64,000 nucleotides of DNA from Planctomycetes bacterium syqfu (lineage in GTDB: Bacteria > Planctomycetota > Phycisphaerae > Phycisphaerales > Phycisphaeraceae). Position 1 is the stretch's first letter, and each line of letters opens with the position of its first letter. The stretch lies in contig CP087563.1 in the NCBI GenBank assembly GCA_020974905.1, forward strand, positions 7,254,001-7,318,000. The letters are read 5' to 3'. Of this stretch, positions 24,089 through 58,478 are shown piece by piece. The notes beneath the pieces were generated by a model. The model was not told the origin of the DNA. It searched no databases and saw nothing but the letters and a program-made list of their open reading frames with translations. The translations under genes and the position numbers were made by a program.

Positions 24089-25099
24089 TTACTTCTCCGG
24101 CCCAACACCTGAAACATCACGTGAGGCGGCTTTACTCTGCACCGCTGAGACGCTGCTTTTACCGTTGCCGCTCGAAGCAGAACTCCCATTCTTTGAGACC
24201 TTGGCTTTACCCGCTTGATAACCACTGCTGGCATTGAGATGTGATGGGCTGCGGTTACCCAGCAAACTGGCATTGGGGCTTCCGATCTGGCGATGCACAA
24301 ACTCTGGGGCACGGATCACCAGCATCCCGTTGTAGAACTTGATGGAACTGTGATACCCACCGTTTGCCATCCAGATGTCCGGCTCGATGCTGCTGCGGAT
24401 CAGGTCGATGAGTTCTTCGGCCCGGTCTTTTTCAGTTGGCTTGTCATTATCGTCATTGTCATTGCTGTCACTGTCTTCAAATAATGAAGTCGAAGAACTA
24501 CCCCCGGAACGGCCACCTGAGTTGCCACTGGATGAGCCACCGACCGTACCGCTGCTGCTCAACGCCGCGCTGAGTCCAAGCTTGGGGGCATTGCGTCGGA
24601 AGTTCGGTGCCTGGAACAGCAGGTCCCGCACATCATACATGCGGACTTCGGTTTTCTTGAGCATCTGGTCGCGTGTGAGAATCTGAACATACCACTTGGT
24701 TTCGTGGTGATACATCTTGTAGTCCGGCGAACCCAACTCAAGGATGACATCAAGCACAATATTGGCAGGGGCGTTCCGCAGCTTCAGCGTGATCGGCAAG
24801 TTACTGTCCACACCCGCAGCTTCAATCGAATCCCAGTTGACCAGCAAGGCCACCCCCGTCACCTGTTTCCACCAGTCGACTGCATGTCGGAACGATGTGT
24901 GATCCAAATCCACCACGGGGATGATCTGGCGAATCTTGACCGCCGGATGATCAGGCGTCATCTCCTGCGCCTTGGCTTGCGCCCGTTTTTTCTTGACCGC
25001 TGCAACACGTTCAGACCAGCTTTGCGCCAACGCGGTATCCACGCCAACAAAGGACAGAACGATGAGTCCAAGCAGAGATATTTTCAAGATGCATTTCAT
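24089..25099 (-). CDS. secreted protein with one secretin N-domain-like module
   Basis: 336 residues with a signal peptide (ISLLGLIVLSFVGVDTALAQ). The module runs from about 56 to 160: DHTSFRHAVDWWKQVTGVALLVNWDSIEAAGV, LPITLKLRNAPANIVLDVILEL and MYDVRDLLFQAP. After a Ser/Gly/Asn/Asp-rich linker it resumes with LIDLIRSSIEPDIWMANGGYHSSIKFYNGMLVIRAPEFVH. It resembles the STN/N0 domain of secretins and the following short repeat, but has no secretin barrel. The same module occurs twice in the next gene. A role in an envelope complex is possible but unproven. Confidence 0.72.
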   Translation of the reverse strand: MKCILKISLLGLIVLSFVGVDTALAQSWSERVAAVKKKRAQAKAQEMTPDHPAVKIRQIIPVVDLDHTSFRHAVDWWKQVTGVALLVNWDSIEAAGVDSNLPITLKLRNAPANIVLDVILELGSPDYKMYHHETKWYVQILTRDQMLKKTEVRMYDVRDLLFQAPNFRRNAPKLGLSAALSSSGTVGGSSSGNSGGRSGGSSSTSLFEDSDSNDNDDNDKPTEKDRAEELIDLIRSSIEPDIWMANGGYHSSIKFYNGMLVIRAPEFVHRQIGSPNASLLGNRSPSHLNASSGYQAGKAKVSKNGSSASSGNGKSSVSAVQSKAASRDVSGVGPEK

Positions 25100-25217
25100 G
25101 GTCGTCTCCGGCCCGGTGGGGTCTTGCCGATGGATCGACTGGGTGGGTATGCATTCATTGTCGCAGTAATGTGTGATTGGATCAATGAAAATTCAGATCG
25201 AAGCCTATGGCCTGAGT

Positions 25218-26597
25218 TTATGACTCGGATGGAGTGGGGGCTTTATTGACCTTGGCTTTCTTGGTTGTTGATTGTGGTCTTTGACGCAATGCTTCGAGTA
25301 GCTTGGTCACTTTTTGGTGGACGCTTGCATGGGCACGCAACAGTAACAAGCCGTTGAGTTCTCTGATGCTCGATTGTTTACCACCATACTCAACCCACTG
25401 CGGTTGCCAGAATGAGTTACGAATGAGGGTGAGTAATGACTTGACTGTCTCAGGATCGACGGTTATTTCCGCTTGCTCTTTGCCGCAACCGGTATGAGCC
25501 CAGATCAGATCGCGAACATCATAGGAAGCCAGGTAGGTGTAGCTGGCGCGAATGTAACGCTTGGTTGCAACCTCAAAAGCAAAGGGGGTTACTTCAAAGC
25601 TCAGTGGGTCCAGAGGGTTGTTCTCCGAGGCCTTTTGCAGAATCAGATTCAGGATTTCACCAGCTTGGGCCTTGTCAATGGTCAGAGAAATCGGGGTGTT
25701 CGGTTCGACGCCGACACGCTGGAGTTCCGGCCAGATGATATTGAATCTGCCATCAATTTTCTGAGAAAATTCTTCGATAGCGGTTTTAAGCTGGTTTTTT
25801 TTAAAGCTAACCGAGATGATTTTCTCAAGTTTGCTGGCAATGGGATAGGGAGCTTGGGGTGGTTGGCTTCTGGTCATCAAGCCGGGATTTTTCAGTTCAT
25901 TGAGCAGTTTGTGGACTTGCTTTTGAATGCTGCTGTGAGCTGTGACGATCAGCTTTGTCCCGTAGGATTGGACTGATGCTGCTTCGCCACCAAATTCAAC
26001 CCAGTATTGTTGTTTGCCAGCTTGCGTACGGATCAGTTCCAGTATTTCCTGTAGACGCTGATCCCGAGCATTTTTTATCGCTTCCTTGTCGGCCGGTTCT
26101 GTCTGTCGTGCTCGATCGAGTAAGTCTGAAATCTCGTACACCATGATCGTCTGGCCTCTTCGGAGAATTTCACGCTGCGTTGAGACGAACACACATACGC
26201 CATCAATGTCGTAAGCCAATGGGTCTTGTTGATTGTTGGTAGAAGCCTTTTTCAGCACCATATCCAGTGCATAGGATGCCATGATTGAGGAAGTTTTAAA
26301 GGAGATCGGTAGGTTTTTCTCAAAGCCATTGTCGGCTATCGAGACCCAATTGATATTCATATTCACATCGCAGGTTTTTGCGATGTAATGCAATGCATCG
26401 ACCAACGGCGTTTTGTTGAAATTAACCACAATTGGCTTGGCAAGTTTCGCCATCGTGTCATGCGAAGCATCGGACTTGACGGTCGATGCAGGAGCGATGA
26501 CAAATGGTTCTTCCACGATTGGCTCAGCATTAATCGGTTTAGAGAGAGTAAGCATCACGGAGCAGATGCAAATGAATGCTGACAAGAGCTTAATCAT
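25218..26597 (-). CDS. secreted protein with two copies of the secretin N-domain-like module
   Basis: 459 residues with a signal peptide (LLSAFICICSVMLTLSKPINA). Copy one (about 50-245) and copy two (about 255-450) share a pattern. It begins with PI..F....A and a Trp followed by Gly-Val/Phe, then A...L.L+L+KAS.N..DPL, then Y.VRDL, and ends with W.E.GG..SS(I/V)...(N)G..LL..AH.S(V/I)(H/Q)..V..LL. Copy two includes VTKLLEALRQRP. The neighbouring gene (24089-25099) carries a third copy. The arrangement suggests gene duplication and fusion. No known family is recognised. Confidence 0.7.
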   Translation of the reverse strand: MIKLLSAFICICSVMLTLSKPINAEPIVEEPFVIAPASTVKSDASHDTMAKLAKPIVVNFNKTPLVDALHYIAKTCDVNMNINWVSIADNGFEKNLPISFKTSSIMASYALDMVLKKASTNNQQDPLAYDIDGVCVFVSTQREILRRGQTIMVYEISDLLDRARQTEPADKEAIKNARDQRLQEILELIRTQAGKQQYWVEFGGEAASVQSYGTKLIVTAHSSIQKQVHKLLNELKNPGLMTRSQPPQAPYPIASKLEKIISVSFKKNQLKTAIEEFSQKIDGRFNIIWPELQRVGVEPNTPISLTIDKAQAGEILNLILQKASENNPLDPLSFEVTPFAFEVATKRYIRASYTYLASYDVRDLIWAHTGCGKEQAEITVDPETVKSLLTLIRNSFWQPQWVEYGGKQSSIRELNGLLLLRAHASVHQKVTKLLEALRQRPQSTTKKAKVNKAPTPSES

Positions 26598-26803: not shown

Positions 26804-28273
26804 TTAAGTCATCTCTTTAGAGTCCGGCTTGCGACTCTCGGCATAGGCTTTGAGTTCGGGGACGATCCATTCTCGGCCGAGAATTTTGATGCTTGATGCA
26901 AGGGGGATGGCGAGCAACATGCCAAGCAAGCCCATCAGTGCACCGCCCATGATCACCGCCAGCATGACGGTCAGCGGATCGAGGTTGGTGGCTTTGCCTT
27001 GGACCAGGGGTTCAACCAGCCAGCCGTCAGCGAGTTGGGCGACGCAATAGACGACGGTGGGCCAGACGAGCATCATCCAACTGAAGTCGGTTTGACCACC
27101 CGTCGCGCTGATGAGGGTCAAGCCCAAGGCTGCGACAAAGCCCAGTGATGCAGCGTATGGGATGAGATTCAAAAAGCCGCAGATGATGCCAAGCAGTAAC
27201 CAGGAGGGCACGCCTGCAAACATCCAGCCGATACTCAGCACGATGCTCATGACCAGAGACTGAATCAGACGACCGCGGATAAAGGCATTGGTGCTCTTAT
27301 CGATTTCGGTGAGGATATGCAGGGTGCGTTCACGGACATCCATCGGGATCAACGGCTTGAACCACTCAAGAATCGGGCCGAGTTTCCAACTGAAAAAGAA
27401 GAAGCAGAAACTGACGATCACCAGCAGGAGAACCAGATACGAAGCAAGGTTGAATGCGGAACCGACTGCGCCGACACCGACATTGAAAATGCGCATGATA
27501 ATTCGGCCGAGCATCGGGTAGTTGAGATTCAGGTTTTTGAGTGACTTTTGAGATGCGTCACCAGCAACTTCGCCTGATGTGTTATCCGATGCCATGGCAG
27601 CGGTGTTCCCTGCTGGATTCTTGCTGGCGTTGGCTGTTTCGGTTTGAGACTGTTGGCTGTTGTCATCGGGTTTAGCCAACTCCTCAACGACAGCTTCGAC
27701 GATTTGAGCTTGTTGTTGAATTTCCTTGTCGGAAACTTTCTCGTTGTCTTTGGTTTGAGCGTTTTCTGAATCCGAGTTCGCTTTTTCGGATTCTTTGTCG
27801 GACTTGGAATCGGACTCTTGCGCATCGTCAGATGACTTGTCATCATCCGCTTGCAGGGATTCACTGACCGAGGGGAACTGTTCGAGAATCAGGCGGTAAA
27901 ACGGGTCGATCTCGTCGGAGTGATTATGGATGGCTGTCTTGACCGTCTGGGTGATCTGCTGCCCCTGTCGGTAGGCTTGCGGGACGACATAGATAAGTGT
28001 GCTTAGCAACCCCACGTAGGCAAAGAGCAGGATGAGCAGGGTGACGAGCCAACGCGGCCATTTGAGTTTGATGTTGACCCAGGTGACGAATGGATTAAAA
28101 ACGTAGGCAAAGCCAAAACCAATGAGAATGGGGGCGGTGATGGATCGGATGCTGTAGGCCATCCAGAGGATCGCAAAGATCACGAGGACAAAAATCAGAT
28201 CCCGAACCCAACAGTAATCCCAGAGATGCGTATTTTTGATGGTGTTCTTGGACGTTTGGTTTTGCTCTGGCAT
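26804..28273 (-). CDS. AI-2E family transporter (PerM-like) with acidic insertion
   Basis: 489 residues. The membrane core is typical of AI-2E/PerM proteins: FVLVIFAILWMAYSIRSITAPILIGFGFAYVFNPFV at the N-terminus and SIGWMFAGVPSWLLLGIICGFLNLIPYAASLGF plus LVEPLVQGKATNLDPLTVMLAVIMGGALMGLLGMLLAIPLA at the C-terminus. Between helices it carries an unusual hydrophilic insert (about residues 141-243), rich in Ser, Asp, Glu, Lys, Gln and Asn. On the minus strand a perfect TATAAT lies some 40 bases before the ATG and CCGGAG provides a Shine-Dalgarno. The transported substrate is uncertain. Confidence 0.9.
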   Translation of the reverse strand: MPEQNQTSKNTIKNTHLWDYCWVRDLIFVLVIFAILWMAYSIRSITAPILIGFGFAYVFNPFVTWVNIKLKWPRWLVTLLILLFAYVGLLSTLIYVVPQAYRQGQQITQTVKTAIHNHSDEIDPFYRLILEQFPSVSESLQADDDKSSDDAQESDSKSDKESEKANSDSENAQTKDNEKVSDKEIQQQAQIVEAVVEELAKPDDNSQQSQTETANASKNPAGNTAAMASDNTSGEVAGDASQKSLKNLNLNYPMLGRIIMRIFNVGVGAVGSAFNLASYLVLLLVIVSFCFFFFSWKLGPILEWFKPLIPMDVRERTLHILTEIDKSTNAFIRGRLIQSLVMSIVLSIGWMFAGVPSWLLLGIICGFLNLIPYAASLGFVAALGLTLISATGGQTDFSWMMLVWPTVVYCVAQLADGWLVEPLVQGKATNLDPLTVMLAVIMGGALMGLLGMLLAIPLASSIKILGREWIVPELKAYAESRKPDSKEMT

Positions 28274-55961: not shown

Positions 55962-58064
55962 TCAGTTCATCCAAACTGGCTCACTTTTGGGATAGTCTCC
56001 TTGATGATCAGATTTTTCGACATCGTGATCTGAAAGATATTGTAAGTCACGAAAGCTGTCATCGCGAAGAATACTGGCCTTGATGAAGACAAAAAGTGTC
56101 TTTTCCGAGTCTTCATTGATTCGACTGGTGAAAAGTTCTTTGAGTAGCGGAATATCGCCCAGAATCGGGATGGTCGTCAGCGTGTGACTTGAACTGTTGC
56201 GCTTAAGGCCGCCCAGGACAATGGTCTTGCCATCGGGGATGGTGACTTTGCTTTCGATGGTGTTGGTTTGGCTGGGGGGAGGAAGGTTGTCGACGCGATC
56301 ACCGGTGAAGCTGCTGAGCTCGATGTTGTATTCCAATTGCAGGTAATCACCATTGCTGATGTGCGGTGTGAGTTTGATGGTGGTGCCCGCACTGACATCA
56401 CCGCCGTAGCTGGTGGTGGCAACGGTGTCCGATGCATTGACACTGGAGAAAGGTTCGTTGGCAGTTGAGACAAGCGAGCCGGATTCGTTGTCATTGACAA
56501 GAATCTTGGGAGCCGATGCAACCTTTGCTTTGCCGGTTCGTTTGAGTGCTTTGAGGACCACGTTGGCGATGTCGGCATCCAATAACGCGAAATTAAAACC
56601 TGTTGATGTGGCAGGGGTGACATCACCCGTAGATGCGTCAATGGTACTTAAGCCAAAGGAGCTAAAGCTGATGATCTTGCCGGTGTCGGTGTCGCCGCTG
56701 GCTGCGATTTCCACACCAAGCGTAAAATCGTCACTGGTGTCGAGTGTTATGACTGTGGCCTCGAGAAGAACCTGGGGCCGTCGGCGATCCAGTTGCTTGA
56801 TCAAGGCTGCATAGATTTGCTGAATCGGAGGCTTGGCAACAACCACGATGCTGTTGGTGTGAATGTCTGCTGCCACGCGTGCGAGTTTGGGTTTGACTGT
56901 AGGAACCTGTTGGGCTACAGCATGCGTAGTTGGGATATGAACTGGGGTTGGCGGCAGTGTTGGTTTGACTGCCGTTGTCGAGCTGGGGGAGTTTGGGGGT
57001 TGTGGCGTTTCCTGGGGGACCTGTCCTTCATCGCTCATCGCTGGTACGTCTGGTGTGACATCCGAAGGTAATGAAGAATCTGTTGGTGAGCCGGAAAAAA
57101 GGCTTGGTAGTGTCGTGGTTTCCAGGCCATCTTCCCCCTGAATGTTTTTCAGGGTTGCCAACACATCTTCAGCTGAACGGTGAAACAGTTTATAGAACTT
57201 GACTGGATTCTGACTCTCGGGAATCGGTATATCCAACGATTGGATGAGAGACTTGATTTCGTCAAGTTGTTCTGGCGTGCCGATAGCCATGATCTGATTG
57301 GTACGATCATCCGAGACGCATTCGACAGTTTGTGTTGCACTGCTACCTCGTCGCCCGCGTGACCTGTCTTTGAGCTGCATGATCTGTTTGACCTTCTGTG
57401 CCAACTCCTTGGATTGTGCGTGGGTTAACGTATAGACTTCGATTTGTCTTTGTGGCGTGGGTTGATCGAGCAACGCAATCATCTGCACAATTCGACGGAC
57501 ATTCACTGCCATGTCGCTGATGATCAGAATGTCCTGATCGGGAAGTGAAAAGATGTTGCCACCCGGTTTGGAAAGGTAGGGTTTGAGTGCAGCTTCCACG
57601 AGTTTGGCATCAGCATGCTTGAGCATTACCAATTGAGTTGCTGCAACAGTAATCCCCTGTGCCTGTGCCTGTCCCTGATCGTCAGTTATCTGTGTGACTG
57701 TTGTCATCTCTGCCGCAGGTGCGATTCGCATAAAGCCGTCTTCAGCTGCGTCGACCAGCGTAAAGCCTTTGATTTGTAATGCACTTTCCAATAAGCCCAG
57801 CAGAGAAGATGCGGGGATCTCCTGGGGGGCTTTGATGGTCAGACGTTTGTTGGCCAGTTGCTCATCGTAAATGAAGTTAATTCCCAGACGTTGGCTGACG
57901 TACTCAACCAAGACCGCGAGTTCGACATCCTTGGGGAAGTTGAGTTGAACCATGGAGTTTGCATTGGCATCAACATCATTATTTTGGGGTTGGGCTTGAA
58001 TTGCAACAGAACACGCCAATATGACGAGAAGGAGGATAATGCGAGTCATAAATTGCTTGCCCAT
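55962..58064 (-). CDS. gspD: GspD secretin
   Basis: 700 residues from ATG 58064, with a signal peptide (IILLLVILACSVAIQAQ). The N0 domain (LAVLVEYVSQRLGINFIYDEQLANKRLTIKAPQEIP) and N1-N3 domains (ILIISDMAVNVRRIVQMIALLDQPTPQ; TNQIMAIGTPEQLDEIKSLIQSLD) lead to a Pro-rich linker (about 340-390). The secretin domain follows: VLLEATVITLDTSDDF, KILVNDNESGSLVS and GKTIVLGGLKRNSSS. It forms the outer-membrane pore of type II secretion. First gene of the operon. Confidence 0.96.
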   Translation of the reverse strand: MGKQFMTRIILLLVILACSVAIQAQPQNNDVDANANSMVQLNFPKDVELAVLVEYVSQRLGINFIYDEQLANKRLTIKAPQEIPASSLLGLLESALQIKGFTLVDAAEDGFMRIAPAAEMTTVTQITDDQGQAQAQGITVAATQLVMLKHADAKLVEAALKPYLSKPGGNIFSLPDQDILIISDMAVNVRRIVQMIALLDQPTPQRQIEVYTLTHAQSKELAQKVKQIMQLKDRSRGRRGSSATQTVECVSDDRTNQIMAIGTPEQLDEIKSLIQSLDIPIPESQNPVKFYKLFHRSAEDVLATLKNIQGEDGLETTTLPSLFSGSPTDSSLPSDVTPDVPAMSDEGQVPQETPQPPNSPSSTTAVKPTLPPTPVHIPTTHAVAQQVPTVKPKLARVAADIHTNSIVVVAKPPIQQIYAALIKQLDRRRPQVLLEATVITLDTSDDFTLGVEIAASGDTDTGKIISFSSFGLSTIDASTGDVTPATSTGFNFALLDADIANVVLKALKRTGKAKVASAPKILVNDNESGSLVSTANEPFSSVNASDTVATTSYGGDVSAGTTIKLTPHISNGDYLQLEYNIELSSFTGDRVDNLPPPSQTNTIESKVTIPDGKTIVLGGLKRNSSSHTLTTIPILGDIPLLKELFTSRINEDSEKTLFVFIKASILRDDSFRDLQYLSDHDVEKSDHQGDYPKSEPVWMN

Positions 58065-58478
58065 ATCAATGTATTCCCACTGACGGTATCTGATATCAGA
58101 TGAGAATAACCGATGTGAGCGCTTATTTCTAATCAAATGGCGAGATGCAATGATAGGCTCTTTGGCTTCATAACTGATCGCTGTCTACTCTATTATCTCT
58201 GATGCATTTTCGATCTCAGTTTGGAATTGCAATCATTGGTAAGGTCGCAGGGATCAATTGCAGAAATCGCTTGGAAATGGTGCGTTTGGCGGGATTTGGG
58301 TGCTTTAATGCTTTTAAATTAATTGTTTATGGTATTTGTCGCTCTGGTTGTTAAAAGTGATGGGCTTAAGATGGATTCAGCCTGGATGTTGGGTTTTCTC
58401 ATTGAGGATGGTTGCAGTCATTTCAAAATCAATGTCACAATCACGTTTGCCCGCTATCGCAGTCGAACTGTAACCGGT
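58065..58478. other. gap upstream of the T2SS operon
   Basis: 414 bases between the secretin start and the end of the propeller-like gene. A perfect 12-base palindrome, TCTGATATCAGA, at 58089-58100 lies 25 bases from the gspD ATG and could be an operator. Otherwise nothing is seen. Confidence 0.5.

Follow-up and report, generated by a model that had tools for sequence, protein, structure and literature searches.

What use does a bacterium make of the periplasmic foot of a secretin in proteins that carry no secretin pore? The question is raised by two adjacent genes, here called P0001 and P0002, on a stretch of 64,000 nucleotides from the genome of Planctomycetes bacterium syqfu (assembly GCA_020974905.1, contig CP087563.1, positions 7,254,001 to 7,318,000). 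This stretch is referred to as the window, and coordinates without a locus name are counted from its first letter. A sequence-only reading of the window had described the two products as secreted proteins made of three copies of an unnamed, secretin N-domain-like module, one of them interrupted by a linker, and had suggested a periplasmic ring or adaptor that might partner a secretin encoded about 30 kb away. We now regard it as near certain that P0001 and P0002 are barrel-less proteins built from the secretin domains N0 and N1, and their probable role is that of helper parts or sensors between the membranes.

Architecture and fold of the two proteins

The two open reading frames (ORFs) are indeed adjacent on the minus strand, 118 bp apart, and comprise the following parts:

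24089 to 25099, minus strand: P0001, secreted protein (predicted) of 336 amino acids with one N0-N1 module (ORF, module profile, AlphaFold2 model, dN/dS)
25025 to 25099, minus strand: predicted signal peptide of P0001, residues 1-25, putative cleavage after ALA (sequence, hydropathy scan)
24632 to 24925, minus strand: N0 (STN-like) domain of P0001, residues about 59-156 (model elements E34-E131 of the mature chain; fold matches to PilQ N0, DotD, FecR-type and STN domains)
24458 to 24631, minus strand: Gly/Ser/Asp-rich linker of P0001 with SLFEDSD, common to the secretin P0004 (alignment, low pLDDT)
24263 to 24457, minus strand: N1 domain of P0001 with shortened last helix and APEFVHRQIG motif, residues about 215-279 (model, family alignment)
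24089 to 24262, minus strand: low-complexity tail of P0001 and stop codon (pLDDT below 50)
25218 to 26597, minus strand: P0002, secreted protein (predicted) of 459 amino acids with two N0-N1 modules (ORF, AlphaFold2 model, dN/dS)
25881 to 26450, minus strand: module 1 of P0002, residues 50-239 (profile, tree, fold match of model residues 25-119 to a BfpBG-complex chain)
25272 to 25835, minus strand: module 2 of P0002, residues 255-442 (profile, tree)

Both N-termini show a hydrophobic segment followed by a signal-peptidase-I-like site, and a simple hydropathy scan found neither a lipobox nor a transmembrane-like stretch after the signal peptide of either protein; we infer that both are exported to the periplasm. 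The count of three module copies was borne out by alignment and by a module profile, with one copy in P0001, interrupted by the Gly/Ser/Asp linker, and two in P0002. No secretin barrel accompanies them: the Pfam scan gave no Secretin (PF00263) match in either protein at E-values (E) up to 1, and a barrel profile was also negative.

The module is likewise absent from the family libraries. Searches of Pfam, NCBIfam and PDB sequences gave no usable family, no Pfam family passed its cut-off in P0001 or P0002, STN (PF07660) went unmatched at E up to 1, and no HAAS domain was matched by Pfam. None of the named companion families (DotD, VirB7-N0, BfpG/TcpQ) is among the Pfam and NCBIfam matches of the two proteins, Pfam presumably holding a TcpQ model. 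A weak NCBIfam match of P0001 to Amuc_1098 (E 0.0053, far under the cut-off) fits the kinship with a secretin described below, and matches to Period_C and EcoEI stay below their cut-offs and were set aside as low complexity or chance. When 44 members of the family were scanned against Pfam, with cut-offs shown for the first member only, the best E was 0.0007, for Period_C in P0001 itself and under its cut-off; other families reached 0.0047 at best, each in one member, including STN (0.034) and Secretin_N_2 (0.048).

Structure prediction agrees with the earlier assignment of the module to the secretin N-domains. The AlphaFold2 model of P0001 was built from 44 sequences (the window protein and 43 of the 71 loci described below; alignment A4) and has a mean predicted local distance difference test score (pLDDT) of 76.4, with mostly 93-98 in N0, which is followed by an N1-like domain. 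This N1 stops short: what remains of its last helix is apparently an APxYVHRQIGG-like motif, which the family conserves, and a low-confidence tail follows. The model of P0002, built from 14 sequences (pLDDT 76.5, predicted template modelling score 0.48), also shows N0 and then an N1-like domain. The best Foldseek matches of both models are secretin N-domains (XcpQ, PilQ, GspD and EscC, with the first three in the top rows). For P0002 the best E is 2.5e-5 and eight rows lie at E of 0.001 or less; for P0001 the best E is 1.1e-3 and no row lies at or below 0.001.

Further comparisons with VIA-align gave Z values mostly of about 8, the level at which the tool warns that a common arrangement may be all that is matched. 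P0001 aligned with the Dot/Icm complex chain 7mud_Ad, which we take to be DotD (Z 9.0, 3.2 Å over 85 residues), with DotD 3ady (Z 8.0, 3.1 Å over 86 residues), with PilQ 4av2 (Z 8.2, 2.2 Å over 74 residues), with the FecR-type domain 4m0n (Z 8.7, 2.0 Å over 74 residues) and with PupR 6ovk_B (Z 8.1, 2.8 Å over 79 residues). The first N0 of P0002 aligned with the 88-residue chain 9u5s_R of a BfpBG complex, presumably BfpG (Z 8.0, 2.5 Å over 85 residues). The first row for P0001 was the diffocin baseplate protein 8v3w_H (Z 10.5, 1.8 Å over 84 residues); the N0 fold is known to be related to phage baseplate hubs (PMC3093366). On the models and these comparisons, the first half of the module is assigned to N0 and the second half to N1, an identification that rests on sequence kinship with the secretin P0004 as much as on fold.

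Kinship with a tetratricopeptide repeat secretin

Judged by sequence, the nearest secretin to the modules is the tetratricopeptide repeat (TPR) secretin P0004 (L007:5520-8831), and not the GspD-like secretin that had been proposed as a partner:

55962 to 58136, minus strand: P0003, GspD-like secretin (NCBIfam/Pfam; no match by the module profile)

Because it goes unmatched by the module profile, P0003 was rejected as source or partner of the modules. P0004 has 1103 amino acids with TPR repeats, the module at about residues 542-777 and a Secretin domain (PF00263) at 884-1076. With P0002 as query, P0004 was found in the same genome at E 2.3e-19 and P0001 at E 5.6e-5, a likeness greater than chance would give. 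Identity to P0004 is 40% for P0002 over its N0 and 37% for P0001, and P0001 also has in common with P0004 the Gly/Ser/Asp linker with its LF.DSD element. The two small proteins differ from TPR-secretins of this kind by the absence of TPRs and barrel, P0001 further by its shortened N1 with a motif of its own, and P0002 by the missing linker and the doubled module. A module profile built from the three copies and that of P0004 found exactly these four modules in the 7.38-Mb genome.

P0004 shows Amuc_1098-type features, namely TPR repeats and a C-terminal secretin domain, an architecture as in Akkermansia Amuc_1098/PilQ (PMC4960237). Its NCBIfam matches include MshL, Amuc_1098, GspD and PilQ, all under cut-off, with 94.2 bits for the Amuc_1098 family (NF042912) against a cut-off of 750, and residues 545-689 align weakly with PilQ (phmmer, E 0.0033 and 0.004). 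The genome has ten PF00263 matches, nine of them over cut-off. The one PilN match in the genome is some 2 kb away from the secretin at 4.03 Mb and not near P0004, PilN being the pilus family that was searched. Three short secretin-domain matches are clustered at G000:C1:5141661-5154364, in frames of 229-346 amino acids, and two of them are over cut-off.

Conservation and distribution

A P0001-type protein was confirmed on fetched DNA in 30 of 41 genomes (the bacterium's own and 40 relatives), was not found in eight (G006, G007, G013, G014, G015, G018, G023 and G024) and was ambiguous in three (G016, G020 and G021). The sequence-only reading had staked its proposal on the modules matching no well-described family and on both genes occurring in related genomes; P0001 bears this out on both counts, whereas P0002 was confirmed in its own genus only, in three of four genomes. 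Double-module proteins resembling P0002 in other genera (L123, L130) were not counted as its orthologues. Both genes are under purifying selection, the ratio of nonsynonymous to synonymous substitution rates (dN/dS) against the same-genus orthologues at L131 being 0.043 for P0001 (335 codons) and 0.226 for P0002 (459 codons).

Two peptide patterns of the P0001 type, searched against the genomes of 84,980 species, found 71 loci, all under planctomycete or uncultured-bacterium titles. A homologue (L140) is carried by a named relative with a complete genome, Planctomycetales bacterium ZRK34. A module ORF without barrel match is present at 70 of the 71 loci, partly by design, the patterns being typical of P0001. 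Gene calls are longest ORFs, some with starts set too early (e.g., L076, L111 and L115), and contig ends cut the ORFs at L138, L183, L191 and L195, as well as the first ORF at each of L156 and L190. A hydropathy scan of 45 proteins (the 43 loci of the structure alignment, P0001 and P0002) found an N-terminal hydrophobic segment in 43, a lipobox-like string in four and a later transmembrane-like stretch in three. Because of these last two groups, the members of the family are not all necessarily plain soluble proteins.

Origins and gene neighborhood

The tree of 82 modules places the 24 sampled P0001-type rows in one clade (support 97/98). The two modules of P0002, each paired with its orthologue, form sister groups (100/97) and fall with the TPR-secretins of their own genus (100/95). 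The tree took 24 of the 30 P0001-type genomes (leaving out L071, L088, L111, L112, L115 and L118), and also omitted L091, loci L131-L201 and L251, whose barrel score was under threshold, and module ORFs without fitting label or with too short a match, such as L124, L128 and some of L232 and L233. The hypothesis that all barrel-less proteins of the order share one origin was rejected (38 of the 82 rows constrained together, approximately unbiased test p-AU 0.0084, in a set that includes the two very long rows of L123).

Synteny agrees with the tree. The next gene upstream in the window is:

26804 to 28273, minus strand: AI-2E family transporter, same strand as P0001 and P0002 (Pfam PF01594, synteny)

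In six loci of family f1 that have no P0002 (L074, L078, L081, L084, L118 and L119) the transporter gene directly adjoins P0001 on the same strand, and one of these, L118, comes from the same genus as the window. In three loci (the window, L071 and L072) P0002 sits exactly at the junction. The secretin-like double module was therefore placed next to P0001, and P0002 has the look of a secretin foot copied not long ago. Altogether, AI-2E is the next upstream same-strand gene in nine of 14 f1 loci, including the three with P0002 in between; it was checked by Pfam in the window, L074 and L078 and assigned by blastp linkage in the remaining loci. The plain reading of these sequences, owing to the tree and in agreement with synteny, is that the module was released several times, early for P0001 and within the genus, from a P0004-like secretin, for P0002.

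The AI-2E link was not seen outside f1, where the upstream gene codes for an unnamed protein of 600-900 amino acids (seven loci) or varies. The neighbors of P0001 in families f2-f6, namely this unnamed protein, the NADH oxidoreductase 20-kDa subunit, a VWA protein, EF-Ts and ribosomal protein S2, suggest no function.

Two explanations of a less constructive kind can be judged on this history. If the proteins were decaying remnants of secretin genes from which the barrel has been lost, the missing barrel and the low-complexity tail would be accounted for; this is scarcely credible, given the dN/dS of both genes and the retention of P0001 in most genomes with a common clade in the tree. The free modules might instead be competitors or decoys that insert into the N-domain rings of secretins and limit their size or activity. 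The grouping of the P0002 modules with secretins of their own genus and the faster evolution of P0002 would suit such a role, but the spread of P0001 across the order, its strong constraint and its distinct end motif are more in keeping with a dedicated function, and we consider a decoy very unlikely.

A possible companion of the secretin ring

An N0 fold without a secretin barrel is what defines stand-alone N0 companions, and it was found in both P0001 and P0002. BfpG, a companion of a type IVb pilus secretin, is needed to form or stabilize the secretin multimer and not for secretin localization; its arrival at the outer membrane depends on the secretin, and it has been proposed to be a non-lipoprotein, while TcpQ is needed to localize its secretin (PMC4971541). 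With BfpG, TcpQ and LngC the window proteins have in common that they are predicted to be secreted and stand alone, and the first N0 of P0002 matches chain 9u5s_R; they differ in carrying N1 besides N0, and the likeness is one of fold. DotD is an N0 protein of an outer-membrane complex that was suggested to form a periplasmic ring (PMC2951367), and Xanthomonas VirB7 (XAC2622), also an N0 protein of an outer-membrane complex, oligomerizes via its N0 domain (PMC3093366). These two likewise have N0 outside a secretin, but they are lipoproteins, whereas P0001 and P0002 have signal-peptidase-I-type signals and N0-N1 once or twice.

By analogy with these systems, we tentatively favor, with somewhat less than even confidence, that P0001 and P0002 are soluble companions of a secretin's periplasmic ring. 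Exported to the periplasm as soluble N0-N1 proteins, they would dock via the edges of N0 and N1 on the ring, most likely that of P0004, and docking would stabilize, cap or modulate the secretin in the manner of BfpG/TcpQ and DotD. The tandem copy P0002, directly upstream of P0001, might add a second layer or bridge neighboring subunits. We hold a companion role to be the most likely one because of the analogy with BfpG/TcpQ, DotD and VirB7, and because a secretin-like protein, P0002, came to lie beside P0001; the earlier suggestion of a ring or adaptor thus survives as the best guess.

Apart from the modest fold scores of P0001, several observations weigh against this companionship. The genes of P0001 and P0004 lie far apart (P0004 at about 1.62 Mb, the window at 7.25-7.32 Mb of the same contig), and the conserved neighbor within f1 is the AI-2E transporter and not a secretin. 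The TPR-secretin was found in 38 of the 41 genomes, the others being G002 (78% complete), G004 (66%) and G039 (97%). At least eight genomes have it without P0001, and five of these, rechecked with the profile, yielded the secretin module only; G039, in turn, has the P0001 type only, with no module-bearing secretin and three other secretins. Since each occurs without the other, the presence of P0001 does not track that of the TPR-secretin, and an obligate pair of the two drew no support from the co-occurrence test. Among 16 relatives, with all secretin classes pooled, PF00263 matches number 2-4 in the seven without P0001 and 2-6 in the nine with it. Finally, a common clade of P0001 and P0002, a group chosen after the tree was seen, has a log-likelihood lower by 29.3 and is disfavored, though not rejected (p-AU 0.066).

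Much of this would suit a periplasmic role independent of secretins, for instance as accessory of an AI-2E-type membrane protein or as envelope scaffold reusing the N0-N1 fold. Occurrence of P0001 and TPR-secretin without each other, the position of AI-2E upstream in most f1 loci and the conserved end motif peculiar to P0001 argue for it, but the AI-2E link is confined to f1 and P0002 groups with a secretin; we regard this role as possible, if on balance unlikely.

The same results limit what can be claimed as new. The P0001 family is real, well conserved, unnamed and order-wide, and no description of stand-alone N0-N1 proteins of the P0001/P0002 type was found in the libraries and literature searched (STN domains in Planctomycetes; secretins in Phycisphaerae and planctomycetes). 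To call it an undescribed system, as the sequence-only reading did, is nonetheless too strong and goes beyond what is demonstrated, because stand-alone N0 proteins are known (DotD, VirB7 and, by fold match, BfpG), any partner is hypothetical, and P0001 and the TPR-secretin come and go independently across the genomes.

The module in other planctomycetes

Across the phylum, at least 111 of 118 genomes have a module match, many in frames of 850-1200 codons. Outside the class, 13 genomes were chosen for short matches, and barrel-less short proteins were present in all of them (L232-L245). In two related single-contig genomes of another class, short barrel-less module genes stand in tandem, five at L232:7144-11591 and three at L233:6748-9434. 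Within the order, three such genes follow each other at L145:1929-5741 and at L148:4703-8656; in the second and third, the modules have diverged, match over about 120 residues only and keep the PDFVHR end. L156 and L190 hold two each, the first cut by the contig end.

Five relatives (L120, L121, L122, L125 and L127) join the module to signaling parts: a HAAS domain (PF22564; over cut-off in L120, L122 and L125, just under in the other two), then a transmembrane-like stretch judged by eye, then the same module. A PadR regulator adjoins this gene in both cases checked, L120 and L127, and HAAS-PadR is a published signaling pair (PMC11237479). These proteins (L120:4109-5607 and L127:6556-8050) look like an inner-membrane sensor with the secretin foot as its periplasmic part. 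In the tree, the HAAS-type module of L125 groups with its family's secretins (99/85), and L126 with the secretin from the same genome (99/88).

The fusions bear on a third role, in which a free N0-N1 protein would inform a receiver in the inner membrane about a periplasmic ligand or about the state of a secretin, as STN/FecR-type domains do. The window proteins have the N0 fold in common with the domains of FecA, FpvA and PupR, and P0001 matches FecR-type structures; they differ by having N1 and by lacking a TonB-dependent barrel, an anti-sigma part or a transmembrane part. Likeness of fold does not show function, neither protein has a transmembrane-like segment after its signal peptide, and the module profile finds no further module, and thus no HAAS-type one, in the window genome. 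A sensor role is rather unlikely in our estimate; it is mainly the missing co-occurrence and the HAAS fusions that keep this and the secretin-independent role under consideration.

Other arrangements stand on their own. Proteins of 440-497 amino acids at L095:2525-3847, L129:6906-8294 and L197:5653-7146 combine one module with a reduced secretin-like C-terminal part, which scores 138, 164 and 51 bits, respectively, far under the full TPR-secretins of the order. At L239:7147-13109 and L240:7861-13534 a short module protein lies directly upstream of a protein of 1600-1700 amino acids, which in L239 has PQQ-propeller, TPR and PDZ matches. In planctomycetes of other classes (L247:2106-16070 and L248:2281-16405) two TPR-secretin genes flank a cluster of ExbB (MotA_ExbB) and ExbD, with one ExbD in L247 and two in L248, which also holds a TPR protein and a sulfatase. 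This secretin cluster is possibly energized by ExbB/ExbD, and we found no literature report of a combination of secretin, ExbD and tetratricopeptide protein in planctomycetes.

Implications

We speculate that the N0-N1 of the planctomycete TPR-secretins could be a freely traded module, released repeatedly both as soluble companions of the ring (P0001, P0002 and the tandem arrays) and as the periplasmic ends of HAAS-PadR sensors, and that soluble and membrane-bound modules could together make up a regulatory network for building and sensing secretin rings; as a whole, this picture is rather improbable. DotD and Xanthomonas VirB7 belong to proteobacterial secretion machines and have N0 without N1, from which the Phycisphaerae family differs by its N0-N1. 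A strongly conserved, order-wide N0-N1 family with several releases of the module and signaling fusions would mean that the foot of secretins serves generally as an interaction module in the periplasm, and it would offer a genetic handle on the TPR-secretins of planctomycetes.

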